Of a DNA stretch of 64,000 bases, positions 9,587 through 26,999 are shown piece by piece. The translations under genes were made by a program, and so were the position numbers. Source of the DNA: Paraburkholderia sabiae (GTDB lineage: Bacteria > Pseudomonadota > Gammaproteobacteria > Burkholderiales > Burkholderiaceae). Location: NCBI RefSeq assembly GCF_030412785.1, contig NZ_CP125296.1, positions 744,001-808,000 of the forward strand, given 5' to 3'. Position 1 is the stretch's first letter; every line of letters begins with the position of its first letter. The notes under the pieces are model-generated. The model was given only the letters and a program-made list of their open reading frames with translations. It was not told where the DNA came from and did not search any database.

Positions 9587-10513
9587 CTAAGGCAGCGCGA
9601 CGCGTTGCAGCACGTTCATCGGACCCAGCCGCTCGATCAGTTCGAGATGCGCCGCGTCGCGCACGAACAGCGAACCCGCGAACCCCAGCGCATTCACGGA
9701 CACGCCTTCCACGCGCTCCGTCGAACGCGGGACGAGCAGCATCCAGCGTCGCGTGACGAGCAGGTTGTATGGCGTCGCGTGACACGGCTCGCCTCCGGTT
9801 GCGACTGTGCCGACGCCCGCCGCTTCCAGTAGCGCACGGTAGGACGCAAACGCGATTTGAGCGGCCGCGTCGGGCGCAACATCGTCGAGCGCGACGCGCG
9901 CAAACGCATGACGAAACGGCAAGCCCGGCACGCGAGCCGTCGGACCTTCGGCAACGGCCTGCGCGAGCAGCGGCGCGACGGGCACGGGCGGCTCGCTATC
10001 GCCGAGCGGCAACGGCACGATCTGCAGATGCTTGTGCGGCTGGCTCGCGCCCGCTTCGGGACCGGCGTTGTAGAACCCGATGCCGTCGAATCCCGCCATG
10101 CAGCGCATCAGCGCTTCGAAATCCGCAAGCGTCAGCAGCGCGTCCTGTCGTTGAAAATCGCGCGTGACGATCAGCAGATGATGATCGATGACGTTGAACT
10201 TGTTGAGCAACGCGAGATGCGTAGCCGAGATATCGGCGACGAAGAGGTCGGGTTCGTACGGAAGAAACGGATTGACGGGCACCTGCTTTTCGGCCTGAAG
10301 CTTGCGCGCCTGCAGACGCTGCTGTTCCTTGCGCGTGAGGCTCGACACCTGCCGCACGATGAAACGCACGCCGTCGCTTTCGATGACGTCCTGCACGGTG
10401 TCGATCGGTTGCAGCGCGCCGCACTGTAGAGCGTGCGCCGTTTGCCTTTCGATGGCGGGCCACAGCTCGGCGGGATCGAAGTGTGGGGGTTCCATGAATC
10501 GACGTGGCGGCAT
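9587..10513 (-). CDS. Ap4A phosphorylase (ATP adenylyltransferase, HIT-like)
   Basis: A 308-residue protein of the Apa1/Apa2 type, which splits diadenosine tetraphosphate with phosphate to give ATP and ADP. Evidence: NPFLPYEPDLFVADIS, the HLLIVTRDF strand, and the HIT-like catalytic PHKHLQIVPL with two histidines one residue apart, followed by the family's C-terminal YNLLVTRRWMLLVPR segment. Its ATG overlaps the upstream kinase stop (TGATG), so the two are probably translated together. An in-frame ATG at 10495 is the alternative start. Confidence 0.87.
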   Translation of the reverse strand: MPPRRFMEPPHFDPAELWPAIERQTAHALQCGALQPIDTVQDVIESDGVRFIVRQVSSLTRKEQQRLQARKLQAEKQVPVNPFLPYEPDLFVADISATHLALLNKFNVIDHHLLIVTRDFQRQDALLTLADFEALMRCMAGFDGIGFYNAGPEAGASQPHKHLQIVPLPLGDSEPPVPVAPLLAQAVAEGPTARVPGLPFRHAFARVALDDVAPDAAAQIAFASYRALLEAAGVGTVATGGEPCHATPYNLLVTRRWMLLVPRSTERVEGVSVNALGFAGSLFVRDAAHLELIERLGPMNVLQRVALP

Positions 10514-10998
10514 CAGAGTTTGTAGCCGATCGTGCGCAACAGATCCTTGCGCCATTGCACGTCTTCGGCGCCCTCCACACCGAGCGGCGAAAATCCGTCG
10601 ATCACGCCGACGATGCCGCGTCCCTGATCCGTTTCGGCCACCAGTACTTCGACGGGATTCGCCGTCGCGCAGAAAAGGCGACAGACCTCGGGCACGGCTT
10701 TCAGCACATTCAGCACGTTGACGGGAAAAAAGCCGTCGCCGAGGAACACGAAGAAGCTGTGGCCCGCCGCGACGTTCAGGGCGTTCTGGCTTGCCATGTC
10801 GATCAATGCTTCGTCGGTGCCCGAGCGCCGCACGAGCCGCTTGCCCGACGCCTCGCAGAACGCGAGGCCGAACTTGATGCCGGGCACGGTGCCGACGAGC
10901 GCCTCGTGAATATCCTCGACGGATTTGATGAAGTGAGATTGCCCGAGGATGAAGTTGGTCGTTTCGGGCTTGACGACGGTGACAGCGGACAGTTGCAT
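10513..10998 (-). CDS. Adenosine-specific kinase family protein
   Basis: The 161-residue product matches the small adenosine-specific kinase family (Pfam Adenosine_kin): ETTNFILGQSHFIKSVEDIHEAL, PGIKFGLAFCEASGKRLVR, a GHSFFVFLGDGFFPVNVLN core and the final GVIDGFSPLGVE. This family is best known from archaeal structures that bind adenosine and ATP. Coupling with an Ap4A phosphorylase suggests a role in adenine nucleotide homeostasis. The ATG at 10998 follows a CGAGG-like ribosome site; the longer frame from 11040 lacks one. Confidence 0.85.
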   Translation of the reverse strand: MQLSAVTVVKPETTNFILGQSHFIKSVEDIHEALVGTVPGIKFGLAFCEASGKRLVRRSGTDEALIDMASQNALNVAAGHSFFVFLGDGFFPVNVLNVLKAVPEVCRLFCATANPVEVLVAETDQGRGIVGVIDGFSPLGVEGAEDVQWRKDLLRTIGYKL

Positions 10999-20305: not shown

Positions 20306-21055
20306 ATGGTTCAAGCCCCTCAGCGCACTGCGGTCAGCGGCCCGACGCTCGTTCGCCTGCTCGCGCGCCTGACGGCCGCCGATGTGCCCGCCTCCAGCCA
20401 GTCGCTGTCCGACCAGTTGAGCCAGTGGCTCGGCTGGACGGACGCCATCGCGCTGTCGACGGCGCTCAACGGCACGCCGCCCGCCGTGGCCGCCAATGCG
20501 CGCGGCGCACGCGGCGCGGGCACGGTCGAGCAGGAGTGCACGAGCGTGCGTGCTTCGCTGGCCGACGCCATCGCGGGCGACAGCATGTTGAGCACGCGCC
20601 GGCGGCGCGGCTCGGCGCACGCGCAGACTGCGTCGGCGGAAACCGAGGCCACTTACGCGGATTTCCGCCAGTGCTACCTCGCGCTTCAGCAGTCGATGGA
20701 AACGCGCATCGGCACGTTGCGCGGCCGTCTGCGTAGCCAGCTGGCGACAAGGACGTCCGAGATGACGCGCCTCGCGGTCGTCGACGCGATCATGGAGCGC
20801 TCGCTGGGCGCGCGCGAGCGCAGTCTGTTCGGCACGGTGCCGGGCCTGCTCGGCGGTCATTTCGAGCGCTTGCGCAAGGCCGATCAGGCGTCCGAGGCCT
20901 CCGCCGATGGCGAGGCTCCGGCGGATTCCGCCGCCGCGCGGCCCGGCGCGTGGCTCGACGCGTTCCGCAAGGACATGCAAAGCGTGTTGCTTGCCGAACT
21001 CGACATTCGTTTTCAACCGGTCGAAGGGCTGCTCGCCGCCCTTCGCATCAGCTAA
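20306..21055 (+). CDS. DUF3348 family protein, first gene of stator-like operon
   Basis: A 249-residue cytoplasmic, mostly helical protein matching DUF3348 as I recall it: PTLVRLLARLTAADV, SLSDQLSQWLGWTDAIALSTAL, the YADFRQCYLALQQSME segment and the ending FQPVEGLLAALR. It has no signal peptide and no transmembrane segment. The middle (residues ~65-110) is low complexity. It begins 130 bases after a terminator-like hairpin and ends 10 bases before the DUF802 gene, so it likely leads the operon. Function unknown; by position it should be a partner of the membrane complex encoded next. Confidence 0.82.
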   Translation: MVQAPQRTAVSGPTLVRLLARLTAADVPASSQSLSDQLSQWLGWTDAIALSTALNGTPPAVAANARGARGAGTVEQECTSVRASLADAIAGDSMLSTRRRRGSAHAQTASAETEATYADFRQCYLALQQSMETRIGTLRGRLRSQLATRTSEMTRLAVVDAIMERSLGARERSLFGTVPGLLGGHFERLRKADQASEASADGEAPADSAAARPGAWLDAFRKDMQSVLLAELDIRFQPVEGLLAALRIS

Positions 21056-21065
21056 CTGGGACGAC

Positions 21066-23501
21066 ATGTCCAGATATCGCATTGATTTTGTTGTTGTTTT
21101 TCTCGTAGGTCTGGTTGCTGTCGGTTGGGTCGGCGCAGGCTATCTTCTGTCGAACCCGCTGGCGCTCGTCGTCACGCTGCTGGTCGGCGCCTGCTACGTG
21201 GCGGGCGCGCTGGAGTTGCAGCGCTATCAGCAGGCCACGGCGACGCTGACGCAGGCGGTCGCGGAGCTTACCGAAGCGCCGGCGCGGCTCGGCGCGTGGC
21301 TCGAACGGGTGGATGCCGGTTTGCGCACGCCGGTGCGCTTGCGCATCGAAGGCGAGCGCGTCGCGCTGCCGGGGCCGGCGCTCACGCCGTATCTGGTCGG
21401 TCTGCTGGTGCTGCTCGGCATGCTCGGCACGCTGCTCGGCATGGTGACGACGCTGCGCGGCACGGGCCTCGCGCTCGACAGCGCGACCGATCTCCAGGCG
21501 ATCCGCGCGTCGCTCGCTGCGCCCGTCAAGGGGCTGGGCTTCGCGTTCGGCACCTCGATTGCGGGCGTGGCGACGTCGGCGATGCTCGGACTGCTGTCCG
21601 CGCTGTGCCGCCGCGAGCGCGCGCTGGCCGCGCATCTGCTCGACACGAAGATCGCGACCACGCTGCGTGCGTTCTCGCAGAGCCAGAAGCGCGACGAGAC
21701 GTTCAAGCTGCTGCAGCGCCAGGCCGACATGATGCCCGCGCTGGTCGACCGTCTTCAGTTGATGATGACGGCCATCGAGCAGCAGAGCGTCGCATTGAAC
21801 GAACGCCTGATCTCGAATCAGCACGCGTTCCACGGCAGGACGGAAGCGGCGTATGCGCGGCTGGTGTCGTCGGTGACGCAGTCGTTGAAGGAGAGCGCGG
21901 CGGAAAGCGCGCGCGCGGCGAGCGCGGCGTTGCAGCCGGTGATGGAAGCGTCGATGTCCGGCCACGCGCAAGAAATGGCGTCGCTGCGCGCGACCGTCGA
22001 ACAGGCGGTGCAACGTCAACTCGATGGACTGTCGACGGGCTTCGAAGCGAGCACGACGACCGTCGCCGATCTTTGGAACAAGGCGCTGCAAGGCCAGCAG
22101 AACGCGAGCGAGTCGATGGTCGCGGATCTGCGCGCGTCGCTGGAAGGTTTTAGCCAGAGTTTCGAACAGCGTTCGACGACATTGCTGGACGGCGTGTCCG
22201 CGCGACTCGATGCGACGGCGGGCCAGGTATCGAGCGCAGCCGAAAGCGCGCGCGCGGCGGGCGCAGCCCTGCAACCGGCGATGGAAGCGACGATGGCGGG
22301 CCACGCGCGCGAAATGGCCGCGTTGCGCGAGACCGTCGAACAGGCGGTTCAGCGTCAACTCGACGGTTTGTCGACGGGCTTCGAGGCGACCACGACGACC
22401 GTCGCGGAACTGTGGAACAAGGCGCTTCAAGGACATCAGAGCGCGAGCGAATCGCTGGTTCGGGATTTGCGCGCGTCGCTGGAGGGTTTCAGTCAGACGT
22501 TCGAACAACGTTCGGGCACTTTGCTGGATGGCGTCTCGTCCCGTCTCGACGCGACGGCGGGCCAGGTGTCGCAAGCATGGACGGACGCGCTGTCGCAGCA
22601 GGAGCGCGCCGGCGAAAAGCTCGCGGATCAGAACCGCGTGGCGCTCACGACGGCAGCCGCCGCATTCGAACAGCATTCGGCAGCGCTGTTGCAAGCCGTC
22701 GGTCAGTCGCATGCGGGCTTGCAGGCGGAGCTTGCATCGCGCGATGAAGCGCGCCTCGCCGCATGGCGCGCATCGCTCGAAGCACTCGCTGCGACCTTGA
22801 GCCAGCAGTGGGAAGAAACGGGCGCGCGCAGCGCGAGCCGCCAGCAGGAAATCTGCGACACGCTCGCGCAAACGGCCCGCGATATTTCGGAGCAAACCCA
22901 GGCGCACGCGAGCGGCACGATCGCCGAAATCTCGCGGCTCGTCGAGGCCGCGTCGGAAGCGCCGCGCGTGGCGGCCGAAGTGGTCGCCGAACTGCGCCAG
23001 AAGCTCTCCGACAGCATGGTCCGCGACAACGCGATGCTCGACGAGCGCAGCCGTTTGCTGGCCACGCTCGAAACGCTGCTCGACGCGGTAAACCATGCAT
23101 CGACGGAACAGCGCACGGCTGTCGATGCGCTCGTGTCGACGTCGGCGGGCTTGCTGGAACGTGTCGGCACGCAGTTCACCGACAAGGTCGAGTCCGAAAC
23201 GCGCAAGCTCGGCGACGTCGCCGCGCAGGTGACGGGCAGCGCGGTCGAAGTGGCGAGCCTCGGCGAAGCGTTCGGCGTGGCCGTGCGTCTGTTCGGCGAA
23301 TCGAACGACAAGCTGACGGCGCATCTGCAACGCATCGAAGCCGCACTCGACAAGTCGCTGATGCGTAGCGACGAACAACTCGCGTACTACGTCGCGCAGG
23401 CGCGCGAAGTGATCGACCTGAGCATGCTGTCGCAGAAGCAGATCGTCGAAGATCTGCAGCAACTGGCGGGCCGACGCGCAGCAGGAGCCGACGCGGCATG
23501 A
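21066..23501 (+). CDS. DUF802 protein: MotA/ExbB-like membrane head with long coiled-coil tail
   Basis: An 811-residue protein with four hydrophobic segments (about residues 8-28, 31-49, 108-130, 153-180) in the spacing of MotA/TolQ/ExbB proton-channel subunits. The third contains LLGMLGTLLGMVTTLRGTG and the fourth APVKGLGFAFGTSIAGVATS, which match the two conserved helices of that superfamily. The remaining ~620 residues are Ala/Gln/Glu/Ser-rich and predicted to form a long cytoplasmic coiled coil. They include a 113-residue tandem duplication. The next gene encodes a MotB-like partner (4-base overlap). The architecture parallels ZorA of Zorya defence systems. DUF802 naming is from memory; stator function is inferred. 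Confidence 0.85.
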   Translation: MSRYRIDFVVVFLVGLVAVGWVGAGYLLSNPLALVVTLLVGACYVAGALELQRYQQATATLTQAVAELTEAPARLGAWLERVDAGLRTPVRLRIEGERVALPGPALTPYLVGLLVLLGMLGTLLGMVTTLRGTGLALDSATDLQAIRASLAAPVKGLGFAFGTSIAGVATSAMLGLLSALCRRERALAAHLLDTKIATTLRAFSQSQKRDETFKLLQRQADMMPALVDRLQLMMTAIEQQSVALNERLISNQHAFHGRTEAAYARLVSSVTQSLKESAAESARAASAALQPVMEASMSGHAQEMASLRATVEQAVQRQLDGLSTGFEASTTTVADLWNKALQGQQNASESMVADLRASLEGFSQSFEQRSTTLLDGVSARLDATAGQVSSAAESARAAGAALQPAMEATMAGHAREMAALRETVEQAVQRQLDGLSTGFEATTTTVAELWNKALQGHQSASESLVRDLRASLEGFSQTFEQRSGTLLDGVSSRLDATAGQVSQAWTDALSQQERAGEKLADQNRVALTTAAAAFEQHSAALLQAVGQSHAGLQAELASRDEARLAAWRASLEALAATLSQQWEETGARSASRQQEICDTLAQTARDISEQTQAHASGTIAEISRLVEAASEAPRVAAEVVAELRQKLSDSMVRDNAMLDERSRLLATLETLLDAVNHASTEQRTAVDALVSTSAGLLERVGTQFTDKVESETRKLGDVAAQVTGSAVEVASLGEAFGVAVRLFGESNDKLTAHLQRIEAALDKSLMRSDEQLAYYVAQAREVIDLSMLSQKQIVEDLQQLAGRRAAGADAA
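21894..22571 (+). repeat. Tandem 339-base (113-codon) duplication inside DUF802 gene
   Basis: Copy 1 (about 21894-22232) and copy 2 (about 22233-22571) keep an exact 339-base register. Both encode SAAESARAA.AALQP, the central QLDGLSTGFEA and a final RLDATAGQVS. The copies differ at scattered codons, so the duplication is not brand new. It lengthens the coiled-coil tail. Confidence 0.9.
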
Positions 23502-24145
23502 ACGAGGACATCGACGGCGGCGTCGAGCCGACGACACCCATCTGGGCCGCGTTCAGCGATCTGATGTCGGTGTTGCTGGGCGCGTTCGTGCTGCTGCTGG
23601 TCGCCGTGATCGGCGTGCAGCTGGAACTGTCCGCGCGACTCGACGACGCCGTGAAGCAGCGGCAAATGGAAGCGCAGCGCCGCAAGACACTCGAACAGGC
23701 GCTCGCGGGACCGCTCGCGGCGGGGCGTGTGACGCTCGTCAACGGACGCATCGGCATCAGCGGCAACGTGCTGTTTGCGTTGAACTCGGATCAGTTGCAG
23801 CCGGAGGGGCGTGAACTGTTGAGGAGTCTTGCAGCGCCGTTGTCCGCGTATCTGCGCTCGCATGATGAAATCCTGATGGTCAGCGGTTTCGCCGACGATC
23901 AGCAGGTGCGTGCAGGCAACCGGCGTTTCGCCGATAACTGGGAACTGTCGGCGCAGCGCGCGTTGACCGTGACACGTGCGTTTATCGATTCGGGCATCCC
24001 CGCGTCGTCGGTGTTCGCGGCGGCGTTTGGCTCGCAACAGCCCGTCAGTTCGAACGCCGACAGCGAAGGGCGCGCGAAGAACCGTCGCGTGGAGATTGCG
24101 GCCGTGCCGAGGCCGGCGTCGGCGGGCAACGCGAATCATGAGTAA
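23498..24145 (+). CDS. MotB/ZorB-like OmpA-domain protein
   Basis: The 215-residue protein has a short cytoplasmic N terminus, then one transmembrane helix (about residues 23-43) that starts FSDLMSVLLG. The Asp just inside the membrane (about residue 20) is in the position of the proton-binding Asp of MotB, TolR and ZorB. A short linker leads to an OmpA-like peptidoglycan-binding domain (FALNSDQLQPEGRELL, the NWELSAQRA helix, and the closing NRRVEI). It overlaps the DUF802 gene by ATGA and the DUF2894 gene by 8 bases, so it is tightly co-expressed with them. Confidence 0.88.
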   Translation: MNEDIDGGVEPTTPIWAAFSDLMSVLLGAFVLLLVAVIGVQLELSARLDDAVKQRQMEAQRRKTLEQALAGPLAAGRVTLVNGRIGISGNVLFALNSDQLQPEGRELLRSLAAPLSAYLRSHDEILMVSGFADDQQVRAGNRRFADNWELSAQRALTVTRAFIDSGIPASSVFAAAFGSQQPVSSNADSEGRAKNRRVEIAAVPRPASAGNANHE

Positions 24146-24764
24146 CGAAGTGAACGCCGCGCAAGCGACGCTCGACGCCTGGCGCGAGCAGGGCGCGGAC
24201 GCGCACGATCCGCTGCGCTTTCATTTCATCGATGCATTGGCGCGGCGTGCTGCCGGGCATGATGGCGAGGCACGTCGCGTGCTCGACGCGCGGCTGTCGT
24301 CGTTGCTCGATGCGTATGCGGCGGATCTTTCAGGCGAAGCGCAAGCGCCTGAGGCAACGCCTTGCAAGCCGTCGCACGGCCCGCTTGCCGGGCTGGTCGA
24401 CTACATCGCGAATCAGGCGACGGAACTTGGCGTGCGCGCGCCGTCCGGTTCCGCTGTTCACGCCGAATTGCAGGCGCTCGATTACTTCCGCGAAACCTGG
24501 TCGAAGGTCAGCGCGGAGAAGCAGTTGCGTCAGTCGTTCGAACAGGTGCCGGGCAATGCCGGTCCGCTCAATTCGAGCAGCCTCGTGCATCGGTCGCTGT
24601 CGCTGATGCGCGAACTGTCGCCGGGTTATCTGCAGCAGTTCTTGTCGTACGTCGATGCGTTGTCGTGGATGGAGCAGCTCACCACGGGCGGTGGCGTGCA
24701 GCCCGTCAAGGAAGCGCCGCGCGCTGCGAGCGCGAAGAAGGGCGCACGCGGCAAGTCGCGATAG
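24138..24764 (+). CDS. DUF2894 family protein, last gene of stator-like operon
   Basis: A 208-residue soluble helical protein matching DUF2894 as I recall it: AAQATLDAWREQGADAHDPLRFHFIDALARRAAGHDGEARRVLD at the start, then LVDYIANQATE, and a C-terminal PLNSSSLVHRSLSLMRELSPGYLQQFLSYVDALSWMEQL. The last 25 residues are Lys/Ala-rich and disordered. No membrane segment. Its gene overlaps the OmpA gene by 8 bases and it ends three bases before the convergent EF-G gene. Function unknown; probable cytoplasmic partner of the stator tail. Confidence 0.82.
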   Translation: MSNEVNAAQATLDAWREQGADAHDPLRFHFIDALARRAAGHDGEARRVLDARLSSLLDAYAADLSGEAQAPEATPCKPSHGPLAGLVDYIANQATELGVRAPSGSAVHAELQALDYFRETWSKVSAEKQLRQSFEQVPGNAGPLNSSSLVHRSLSLMRELSPGYLQQFLSYVDALSWMEQLTTGGGVQPVKEAPRAASAKKGARGKSR

Positions 24765-24767
24765 AGG

Positions 24768-26813
24768 TCAGTCCGCATCGGCCTGCTTCTTGTACTGCGA
24801 CGCAAGCTTGTCTTGCTGGTTCGGCGGCACGGGATCGTAATGGCTCAGTTCGATGTTGTAATTGCCGTGCCCGCCCGCGATCGCGTTGAGCCGCGATTGA
24901 TAGTCGGCGAGTTCCGATAGCGGCACTTTCCCCGCGACGACAACAGCATGGCCCGCCAGATTGCGCGTGCCCTGCACCTGCGCGCGCCGCGACGACAGAT
25001 CGCCGATGATGTCGCCCATCGTCGTCTCAGGCGTCATCACCTCGATGTTGACGATGGGTTCGAGCAGAATCGGCTGCGCCTTCAGCACGGCATCGATGAA
25101 GGCCTTGCGGCCCGCCGTGACGAAGGCCACTTCCTTCGAATCGACGGGATGGCTCTTGCCGTCGAACACGGTAATGCGCACGTCCTGCATCGGAAAGCCC
25201 GCAAGCGGCCCGTTTTCGATCACCTGCAAAATCCCTTTCTCGACGGCGGGCATGAACTGGCCGGGAATTGCGCCGCCTTTCACGGCATCGACGAATTCGT
25301 AGCCCGCGCCGCGCGGCAACGGTTCGACACGCAGCATCACTTCGCCGAACTGTCCCGCGCCACCCGTCTGCTTCTTGTGCCGATGATGTCCTTCCGCCTT
25401 GCCGCCGATGGTCTCGCGATACGCGATCTTCGGCGGTCTTGTGATAACGCCGAGCTTGTACTGATCGGTGAGCCGCTCCAGCATGTGCCGCAAATGAAGC
25501 TCGCCGAGACCGCGCACAACAGTCTCATTCGTGCCGACGGGATGCTCGATCTTCAGGCATGGATCTTCCGCCGCGAGCTTCTGCAGGATTTCCCATAGAC
25601 GCTGTTCGTTGCCGCGCCGTTCGGGTTCGATGGCAAGGCCGTAGATCGGCGTCGGAAACGCAAGCGGCGCGAGATGAATGTTGCCGTCTTCGGGCGCGTC
25701 GTGCAGCACGGCATCGAATGAGATCTCGTCGACCTTGGCCGTCGCGCAGATATCGCCGGGACCGGCCTGGAGGACCTCTTCGTGATCCTTGCCCTGCAAC
25801 AGCATCAGATGCGCGACGCGAAAGGGCTGGCGCGCATCGCCGATATACAGCTGACTGTCGCGCCGCACCGTGCCTTGATGAATGCGGAACACGGCCATCT
25901 TGCCGATGTACGGATCGATCACGATCTTGAACACATGCGCGAGCACATGCTTGTCGGGATCGGGCTCGGCCTGCACGGTCTCGCGCCGTCCATCGACATC
26001 GCGATAGAACAGAGGCGGATTGCCTTCGAGCGGGTTGGGCAGCAGCTTCACGAACACATCGAGCAGTTCCTGAATGCCCGCGCCCGTCGCCGCCGACGCA
26101 AAGCACACAGGCACGAGATGACCTTCGCGCAACGCTTTTTCGAAGGGTTCGTGCAACTGTTCCGGCTTGATCGCTTCGCCCTGTTCGAGATACAGCTCCA
26201 TCAGCTTTGCATCGAGTTCGATCACCTGATCGACGAGCGCGTCATGCGCGGACTCGACCGACATCAGATCCGATTCGCCGGACGGATTGAAGAAGCAGTC
26301 GACCACGGCATGCGCGTCCTGCGCGGGCAGATTGATAGGCAGACAGTTCTTGCCGAACGTCTCCTGAATGTCTTCGAGCAGTCGCGACAGATCGACCTTC
26401 TCGCCGTCGATATCGTTCACGACGATGATGCGGCACAGCTTGCGCGCCTCGGCCCACGCCATCATGCGGCGCGTCGTCATTTCGATGCCGGTGCGCGCGT
26501 TGACCACGATGGCGGCCGTTTCGACGGCGGGCAGTGCGCTGATGGAGAGGCCGGAGAAGTCGGGGTAGCCGGGTGTGTCGGCGAGATAGATGCGGGTGTT
26601 CTGGTAGTGCAGGTGGGCGATCGCGGAAGTGAGCGAGTGGTGGTATTTGCGCTCCAGCGGATCGAAGTCGCAGACGGTCGAGCCTCGATCGACGCTGCCT
26701 GCCGCGTGGATCGCGCCACCTTCTTTCAGCAGCGCTTCGATGAGCGAGGTCTTGCCGCATCCTGCATGGCCGACCAGCGCGATGGTACGGATGGCTTCGG
26801 GTGGATAATCCAT
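24768..26813 (-). CDS. Elongation factor G paralogue
   Basis: A 681-residue translational GTPase with EF-G domains I-V. G1 is GHAGCGKT (residues 15-22) and G3 is DTPGYPDF (from 79). The usual RGIT switch-I motif is absent, and the G4 motif reads NDID (123-126) instead of NKxD. It is therefore a divergent EF-G-like protein, not the housekeeping fusA in the str operon. The start at 26813 has GAGGA five bases upstream; the ATG at 26825 does not. Probable role in stress or specialised translation is inference. Confidence 0.88.
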   Translation of the reverse strand: MDYPPEAIRTIALVGHAGCGKTSLIEALLKEGGAIHAAGSVDRGSTVCDFDPLERKYHHSLTSAIAHLHYQNTRIYLADTPGYPDFSGLSISALPAVETAAIVVNARTGIEMTTRRMMAWAEARKLCRIIVVNDIDGEKVDLSRLLEDIQETFGKNCLPINLPAQDAHAVVDCFFNPSGESDLMSVESAHDALVDQVIELDAKLMELYLEQGEAIKPEQLHEPFEKALREGHLVPVCFASAATGAGIQELLDVFVKLLPNPLEGNPPLFYRDVDGRRETVQAEPDPDKHVLAHVFKIVIDPYIGKMAVFRIHQGTVRRDSQLYIGDARQPFRVAHLMLLQGKDHEEVLQAGPGDICATAKVDEISFDAVLHDAPEDGNIHLAPLAFPTPIYGLAIEPERRGNEQRLWEILQKLAAEDPCLKIEHPVGTNETVVRGLGELHLRHMLERLTDQYKLGVITRPPKIAYRETIGGKAEGHHRHKKQTGGAGQFGEVMLRVEPLPRGAGYEFVDAVKGGAIPGQFMPAVEKGILQVIENGPLAGFPMQDVRITVFDGKSHPVDSKEVAFVTAGRKAFIDAVLKAQPILLEPIVNIEVMTPETTMGDIIGDLSSRRAQVQGTRNLAGHAVVVAGKVPLSELADYQSRLNAIAGGHGNYNIELSHYDPVPPNQQDKLASQYKKQADAD

Positions 26814-26999
26814 GACCGTCCTCATTCTGCGGCAGTGATTGGGCCATTATTGGTGAAAATGGCGCGTCCTGCCAGCCGGCGCGCAGCAAATTGCGAACTC
26901 CGGTATGCTGCGGCGCGGTAGAAACGGCCCGCGCACGCATCCGCGCAGGTTCTGATAACGTGGGCCGATCTTCGCGAACATTCATTGGATCGACACACC

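Follow-up and report, generated by a model that had tools for sequence, protein, structure and literature searches.

The 64,000-nucleotide stretch of Paraburkholderia sabiae DNA analysed here, referred to as the window, covers positions 744001-808000 of a 2.3-Mb contig in a genome of 9.9 Mb assembled in four contigs. Four genes lie on the plus strand in a single run, with spacings of +10, -4, and -8 bases, just as the original prediction had described from the open reading frames (Table 1). The ORF listing gives longer upstream starts for the second gene (20907) and the fourth (23976); the starts at 21066 and 24138 are in-frame ATGs inside those frames. Pfam finds DUF802 (E = 6e-51) in the second product, besides the DUF3348, OmpA, and DUF2894 families of the other three, and among named proteins the closest come from Paraburkholderia, for instance P. 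azotifigens (88%). Convergent with the cassette, and 3 bases from the DUF2894 stop codon, a minus-strand gene at 24768-26825 encodes a 685-residue paralogue of EF-G; P. largidicola has a gene annotated fusA_3 at the same place.

Table 1. Genes and features of the four-gene operon, in window positions.
Feature	Position	Strand	Basis or remarks
DUF3348 protein, 249 aa	20306..21055	+	Pfam 5e-100; PADLOC ZorG3 2.8e-103; AlphaFold2 pLDDT 69.7, predicted all-helical
zorA type III, 811 aa: stator core, predicted coiled-coil rod, C-terminal tip	21066..23501	+	PADLOC ZorA3 E = 0, 1401 bits
MotA/TolQ/ExbB-type core of ZorA, residues 110-185	21393..21620	+	8vvn_C residues 146-219, E = 3e-4
Rod of ZorA, variable in length and rich in hendecads, about residues 226-616	21741..22913	+	period 3.655; boundaries approximate
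Tandem duplication in rod, 339-nt unit (113 aa), 2.0 copies	21893..22571	+	TRF score 978, 84% matches
Conserved C-terminal tip of ZorA, residues 617-811, best kept at 767-781 (RSDEQLAYYVAQARE)	22914..23498	+	alignment of 155 ZorA
zorB type III, 215 aa: N-terminal hydrophobic helix and OmpA/MotB-type domain	23498..24145	+	PADLOC ZorB3 4.5e-117; Pfam OmpA 8e-18
Codon of ZorB Asp21, ion-carrying aspartate position by homology	23558..23560	+	invariant in relatives
OmpA-type peptidoglycan-binding domain of ZorB, residues 92-196	23771..24085	+	Pfam; profile against solved chains
DUF2894 protein, 208 aa, predicted helical	24138..24764	+	Pfam 1e-64; PADLOC ZorF3 6.4e-86; AlphaFold2 low confidence, pLDDT 53.7

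This four-gene operon is almost certainly a Zorya type III system. The PADLOC-DB models ZorA3, ZorB3, ZorF3, and ZorG3 match all four proteins (6e-86 to E = 0), models for Zorya I and II score far lower on the same proteins than the type III models, and NCBIfam model ZorA_2 reaches 3e-4 against ZorA, below its cut-off. ZorA has a MotA/ExbB/TolQ core followed by a long cytoplasmic tail of about 585 residues, ZorB has a hydrophobic helix with an aspartate plus an OmpA peptidoglycan domain, and genes for DUF3348 and DUF2894 flank zorAB in one operon-like run. Zorya type III was named and defined from 6,401 gene pairs by Payne et al. 2021 (PMC8565338), and all four proteins resemble that description with no difference in composition. 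The family matches support the original prediction of a ZorAB-like stator with a peptidoglycan-type anchor and two extra soluble partners, and bear out its remark that the set contains no nuclease or helicase, none being recognisable in Pfam, NCBIfam, or PADLOC family searches. Its proposal of a new, third kind of machine has to be given up, since the type III models match all four proteins and the type already has a name. The partners, rightly said to have no known role, have been called ZorF and ZorG. These labels need care because they are swapped between sources: the 2021 paper uses ZorF for DUF3348 and ZorG for DUF2894, and PADLOC-DB does the reverse. Literature searches on DUF3348 and DUF2894 found PMC8565338 and PMC11890865, with PMC12584637 also mentioning a predicted Zorya III; the sole match for DUF802 was a 2005 paper on protein domains. 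PMC11890865 describes three Zorya types and lists Paraburkholderia among frequent hosts. The kind of operon is thus already known; relative to the published passages, what is new is the length range of the rod, its turn-fitting repeats, the near-core distribution, and the scarcity of defence neighbours.

A match to MotA, TolQ, or ExbB at ZorA residues 100-185 had been set beforehand as a test of the stator assignment, and residues 110-185 do match a solved chain, 8vvn_C, the only one under E = 1 for ZorA. Judging by its chain length (696 residues) and PMC11890865, 8vvn_C is presumably ZorA from a Shewanella Zorya I system. The core is strongly conserved in 154 rows, 149 of them distinct since the fetched and named locus sets share five cassettes. 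DUF802, which the original prediction had made part of the stator, is instead a unit within the tail, found in three stretches and best at residues 435-487. Almost the full length of ZorB is covered by profile matches to 8vvn_B and 8qyd_F, presumably ZorB chains, and its anchor domain matches solved chains of MotB, PomB, Pal-type proteins, and TssL (3khn_A, 6e-20). All 31 aligned relatives share Asp21 of ZorB, which is kept in at least 98.5% of 154 rows; PMC11890865 gives a D21 in ZorB II. By homology, the operon shares with Zorya I and II the 5:2 stator core, the ZorB aspartate and peptidoglycan domain, and the long ZorA rod, and it differs from them in having no ZorC, ZorD, or ZorE. A 5:2 ZorA:ZorB assembly with a pentameric rod would be expected on the same grounds. 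Ion flux, peptidoglycan binding, and a structured tail are each reported to be important in types I and II (PMC11890865).

Related core sequences might suggest that the operon is just a variant of the flagellar MotAB or Tol/Exb stators, a highly improbable explanation given that the type III PADLOC models score highest by far. Flagellar MotA/MotB and PomA/PomB share the MotB/PomB-type peptidoglycan anchor and, by homology, the stator core and aspartate, but Zorya III adds a long rod with a conserved tip and two constant soluble partners, DUF3348 and DUF2894. TolQ/TolR and ExbB/ExbD share the MotA/TolQ/ExbB-type core, whereas Zorya III has an OmpA-type anchor and the rod. By Pfam, the ten neighbours scanned in the window include no flagellar, chemotaxis, or Ton/Tol genes, and the operon itself includes no TolA/TonB-like gene. 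The type III model scores, together with the fixed four-gene cassette, contradict this candidate.

In 79 of 81 loci (80 fetched loci and the window) and in 75 of 80 named loci, the cassette comprises the same four genes, arranged identically and all on one strand. Contig ends cut one exception in the first set (L126) and five in the second (L145, L162, L164, L190, and L201). In the remaining exception, L069, nothing matches zorA, a gene that seems to have been lost naturally there. This locus (genome G236, at 5.2 Mb among the smaller of the genus) keeps the genes for DUF3348, ZorB, and DUF2894, and at about 9821-10992 its DUF3348 reading frame overruns the domain and stops 574 bases before zorB. 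The first start of zorB lies 4 bases inside zorA in 59 of the 72 loci measured. Flanking families are rarely shared: even the most frequent is present at just 12 of 81 loci, and among the best 40 of 45 flank clusters with at least four loci, a single one includes a neighbour from the window, a DsbA-like gene (4 loci, the window among them). P. largidicola keeps the site: on a 2.3-Mb replicon, the cassette has the same neighbours by annotated name, namely an acylase, an alcohol dehydrogenase, EF-G, and DsbA.

In the tree of 79 cassettes, genera g3 and g24 need one change each, and g1, g10, g11, g12, g14, and g25 need two to four; g1 is the genus of the window, taken as Paraburkholderia, and its own family is taken as Burkholderiaceae. 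A single clade of all 73 same-order rows, against 6 others, is rejected (p-AU 0.001), the genus of the window as one clade is weakly rejected (p-AU 0.036), and its family as one clade is not rejected (p-AU 0.56). Transfer of Zorya III between orders is therefore supported. In the tree of named loci, Dyella and Achromobacter fall inside the Burkholderiaceae rows (midpoint root; the NCBI genus labels are partly outdated), and the window groups with Burkholderia sp. Ac-20365 and P. franconis. These tree clusters, along with the site kept in P. largidicola, can be read as vertical descent at shallow depth.

A profile search finds DUF3348 in 174 of 249 genomes of the family, representing 11 of 25 genera, with one match in 168 genomes and two in six (four of the six as raw matches). 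Within the genus, 130 of 140 genomes have it, one gene each, eight second matches being split pieces of one gene or below the cut-off; of the ten genomes without it, four are of 7.0-7.6 Mb in 3-20 contigs. More widely, DUF3348 occurs in 25 of 349 genomes drawn from the order and 8 of 323 drawn from the class, counts that both include the window's own genome and, for the order, five more of the family. The ZorC model PDLC00625 hits 14 of the same 249 family genomes, although it is one of several ZorC models and Zorya I may be undercounted. A plasmid collection gave 26 matching records, all at least 0.59 Mb in size, no match was found in 50,697 phage records, and a scan of viral contigs with ZorB returned partial matches only.

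The original prediction had suggested a survey for defence islands, and that survey found the neighbourhoods of Zorya III to be defence-poor next to those of Zorya I. Neighbours of Zorya III matched three PADLOC families at 1e-20, one gene each (134 genes from 18 of 59 in-family loci), against 135 families for neighbours of Zorya I (78 genes from 13 of 14 loci), where the best 25 families listed have at most three genes per family; these are counts of families, several models may match one gene, and Zorya I genes were excluded by position rather than by homology. The ten neighbours in the window itself have two weak PADLOC matches, at 6e-8 and 5e-4. PMC8565338 describes a patchy genus-level distribution for its systems, and the distribution of Zorya III in the genus of the window is the opposite. 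Three traits that lie outside the definition of Zorya III, but mark accessory defence systems, are patchy presence in close relatives, defence-rich neighbourhoods, and horizontal transfer; only the last is seen here, in the rejected same-order clade. The operon is unlike an ordinary accessory defence system, being near-core, single-copy, and poor in defence neighbours, which is odd for a system of phage defence and raises the question of whether defence is its main task in this genus.

Direct evidence of defence comes from a natural operon of Stenotrophomonas nitritireducens, which in E. coli BL21-AI significantly reduced plaques of at least one phage and protected liquid culture from phage PVP-SE1 at an MOI below 0.1 (PMC8565338); it is the only plaque assay of Zorya III in the published passages found. 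For Burkholderia cenocepacia K56-2, PMC12584637 reports that infection changed transcription of only the first one or two genes of a predicted Zorya III, and that CRISPRi knock-down of predicted defence genes brought no change in fitness with phage Bcep176; its authors give four possible reasons, among them a low copy number and systems that do not act on the phage used. The distribution and this negative CRISPRi result, with its one phage, are the strongest evidence against a plain defence role. The operon might then be mainly a resident machine of envelope surveillance or maintenance, a housekeeping motor like TolQR whose protection of E. coli from phage is a by-product of over-expression. 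Presence in most genomes of the genus, with one gene each, and in most of the family, where PDLC00625 is scarce, the few defence families nearby, the neighbourhood kept in P. largidicola, and the CRISPRi experiment would all fit such a machine; we nevertheless think it rather unlikely, in view of the published plaque reduction, the ten genomes of the genus that lack the operon's DUF3348, and the transfer between orders, which, with flanks differing from genus to genus, fits a defence-type lifestyle. The envelope-maintenance and mechanosensing alternatives offered in the original prediction gain some weight from the near-core distribution.

PMC11890865 describes three Zorya types, and only the third has no evident effector enzyme, which raises the question of how it stops phage. 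Searches of Pfam, NCBIfam, and PADLOC give no enzyme or nuclease family for DUF3348 or DUF2894, profile searches give no solved structure convincingly related to them (lowest E 0.097 and 0.92), and fold comparison of the partner models gives no match beyond the chance level for helical bundles. AlphaFold2 models DUF3348 as all-helical (34 sequences; five models with pLDDT 55.8-69.7) and DUF2894 as helical, fairly confidently at residues 4-67 and mostly under 50 in the rest (35 sequences). Over 79 rows the partners diverge more (mean distances 0.50 and 0.55) than the ZorA core (0.32) or ZorB (0.26), and the divergence of the four proteins is correlated (r 0.78-0.92), which fits partners evolving with the motor, though host relatedness alone would also correlate. 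Weak partial matches to DUF3348 (profile positions 25-156) occur in reading frames of about 455 residues at L050 and L051 (family f9), possible distant or fused relatives. Residues 3-54 of DUF2894 (24144-24299 in the window) weakly match the type III secretion chaperone SctY, at 0.006, below the cut-off.

One of the partners could be an effector that the rod recruits, in the manner of ZorD and ZorE, either a divergent nuclease or a protein that binds nucleic acid. PMC11890865 expects nuclease recruitment in all Zorya subtypes, which counts against non-enzymatic partners, DUF3348 has conserved Arg, Trp, and Asp positions, and models as weak as these (pLDDT 69.7 and 53.7) leave room for a divergent enzyme. 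Such an effector seems unlikely, however, when neither protein falls in an enzyme family or has a convincing solved relative, both are predicted to be helical, and the positions of DUF2894 kept in at least 93% of 154 rows include one acidic residue and no His. Alternatively, ion leak through ZorAB might itself kill or halt the infected cell, a depolarising abortive system with no nuclease in which DUF3348 and DUF2894 are gate-keepers. This we regard as possible, if doubtful: PMC8565338 proposes that the partners regulate ZorAB, none of the four proteins belongs to a nuclease family by Pfam, NCBIfam, or PADLOC, and the partners are modelled as helical, but PMC11890865 describes a nickase as the partner in type II and a ZorD able to target DNA in type I.

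The long coiled-coil tail foreseen for the second product is present, at about 585 residues (226-811) rather than the 620 first estimated. Measured from the profile start, ZorA ranges from 551 to 1224 residues (155 proteins with 65 distinct lengths; 805 of 811 residues in the window), whereas component sizes of Zorya I and II are well conserved (PMC11890865). The variation sits between the conserved stator and the conserved tip. The last 200 or so residues are conserved in 155 ZorA, with sliding-window means of 0.67-0.96 that peak at residues 767-781, and the tip motif RSDEQ..YY occurs in 131 of 150 distinct ZorA against 0 of 77 ORFs of at least 450 residues from Zorya I regions. Over 155 tails the hydrophobic period is 3.655 residues, with lags such as 18, 22, 11, 7, 40, 33, and 29, as in a predicted coiled coil rich in hendecads.

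Tandem arrays (TRF, score 80, unit of at least 60 nt) occur in 93 of 157 zorA genes and in 90 of 152 distinct ones, 62 of which have units of at least 50 aa at 80% match. Once multiples are set aside, the best units with a length of 50 aa or more measure 51, 62, 69, 73, 80, 87, 94, 98, 113, 131, and 149 residues. Divided by 3.64, all 11 fall within 0.18 of a whole number (R 0.92; 0 of 100,000 random sets equal; p < 1e-4), where 3.64 was chosen after a scan (optimum 3.63-3.635) and the same data served both to find the repeat set and to test it; at the independently measured 3.655 residues per turn, R is 0.88, again with 0 of 100,000 random sets as high. Each unit length was counted once, and shared ancestry ties some units together. 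Of the 93 array-bearing zorA, 92 have a best unit that departs from whole turns by no more than 0.2 turn. Agreement weakens as further periods are admitted, to R 0.82 for every in-frame period of at least 50 aa (4 of 100,000 random sets as high) and 0.72 for every one from 20 aa (17 of 100,000). Two points count against a rod built of whole turns: the secondary in-frame periods at L173 (24 aa, 65% match) and L195 (103 aa) fall out of phase, and total ZorA lengths have no clear helical phase. Unequal exchange between similar heptads or hendecads could also favour whole-turn units without selection. In a Zorya I control of 14 loci, with a ZorA candidate found by profile in 9 (five of them weak, E 0.04-0.87), tails peak at 3.63 and one of the nine putative zorA has a tandem array, compared with the 90 of 152 in type III. 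That one, at L265 (genome G019, E 0.04), has a 186-nt (62-aa) unit in 2.7 copies, and the same unit length is found in type III rods. A literature search pairing Zorya with hendecad gave no match, and one on repeats or tail length in Zorya or ZorA gave none by title among the matches listed, subscription papers being mostly outside the search. In Achromobacter pulmonis (L195), zorA contains near-identical repeats (99-100%) with periods of 145, 309, and 400 nt; the first and last are not multiples of 3 and indicate either recent duplication or an assembly fault.

Taken together, these observations make it probable that the operon encodes a peptidoglycan-anchored, ion-driven ZorAB motor whose long cytoplasmic rod would pass the signal of phage entry on to two partners, by prediction helical and non-enzymatic. 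The sequences themselves show the four families in their order, the invariant ZorB aspartate with the OmpA domain, and a ZorA in which a rod of repeats, differing in length between relatives, joins a conserved stator to a tip that is conserved too. Ion-driven signalling by the rod is likely by homology, and we infer the step from rod to outcome, in which partners with no catalysis of their own would be bound at the tip. When the wall is disturbed at DNA entry, ZorB would grip the peptidoglycan, ions would flow past Asp21 and turn the ZorA ring, and the rod would carry the twist to the tip. DUF3348 and DUF2894 would bind there and, on movement of the tip, act as regulators or adaptors rather than nucleases, either by gating the leak of ions or by bringing in a host factor. 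Whole-turn insertions would leave coiled-coil packing intact, which may be why the rod can lengthen freely.

A bolder reading, which we hold only tentatively, makes the operon a resident, near-core envelope-sensing machine of Paraburkholderia, with the defence Zoryas as its nearest kin and with a shaft free in length and fixed in register that grows by tandem whole-turn insertions between the conserved motor and the conserved tip. Rotation or twist would then be handed over distances that can triple while the interface is unchanged. Two points here deserve a test: the near-core place of a defence-type machine in its genus, and rod repeats that keep helical register. The turn-fitting repeats offer a handle on how the ZorA rod transmits its signal, since lengthening the rod by a set amount, with register kept or broken, should tell transmission of twist apart from simple tethering. 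If the whole tail is one helix, the rods would span about 49 to 149 nm.
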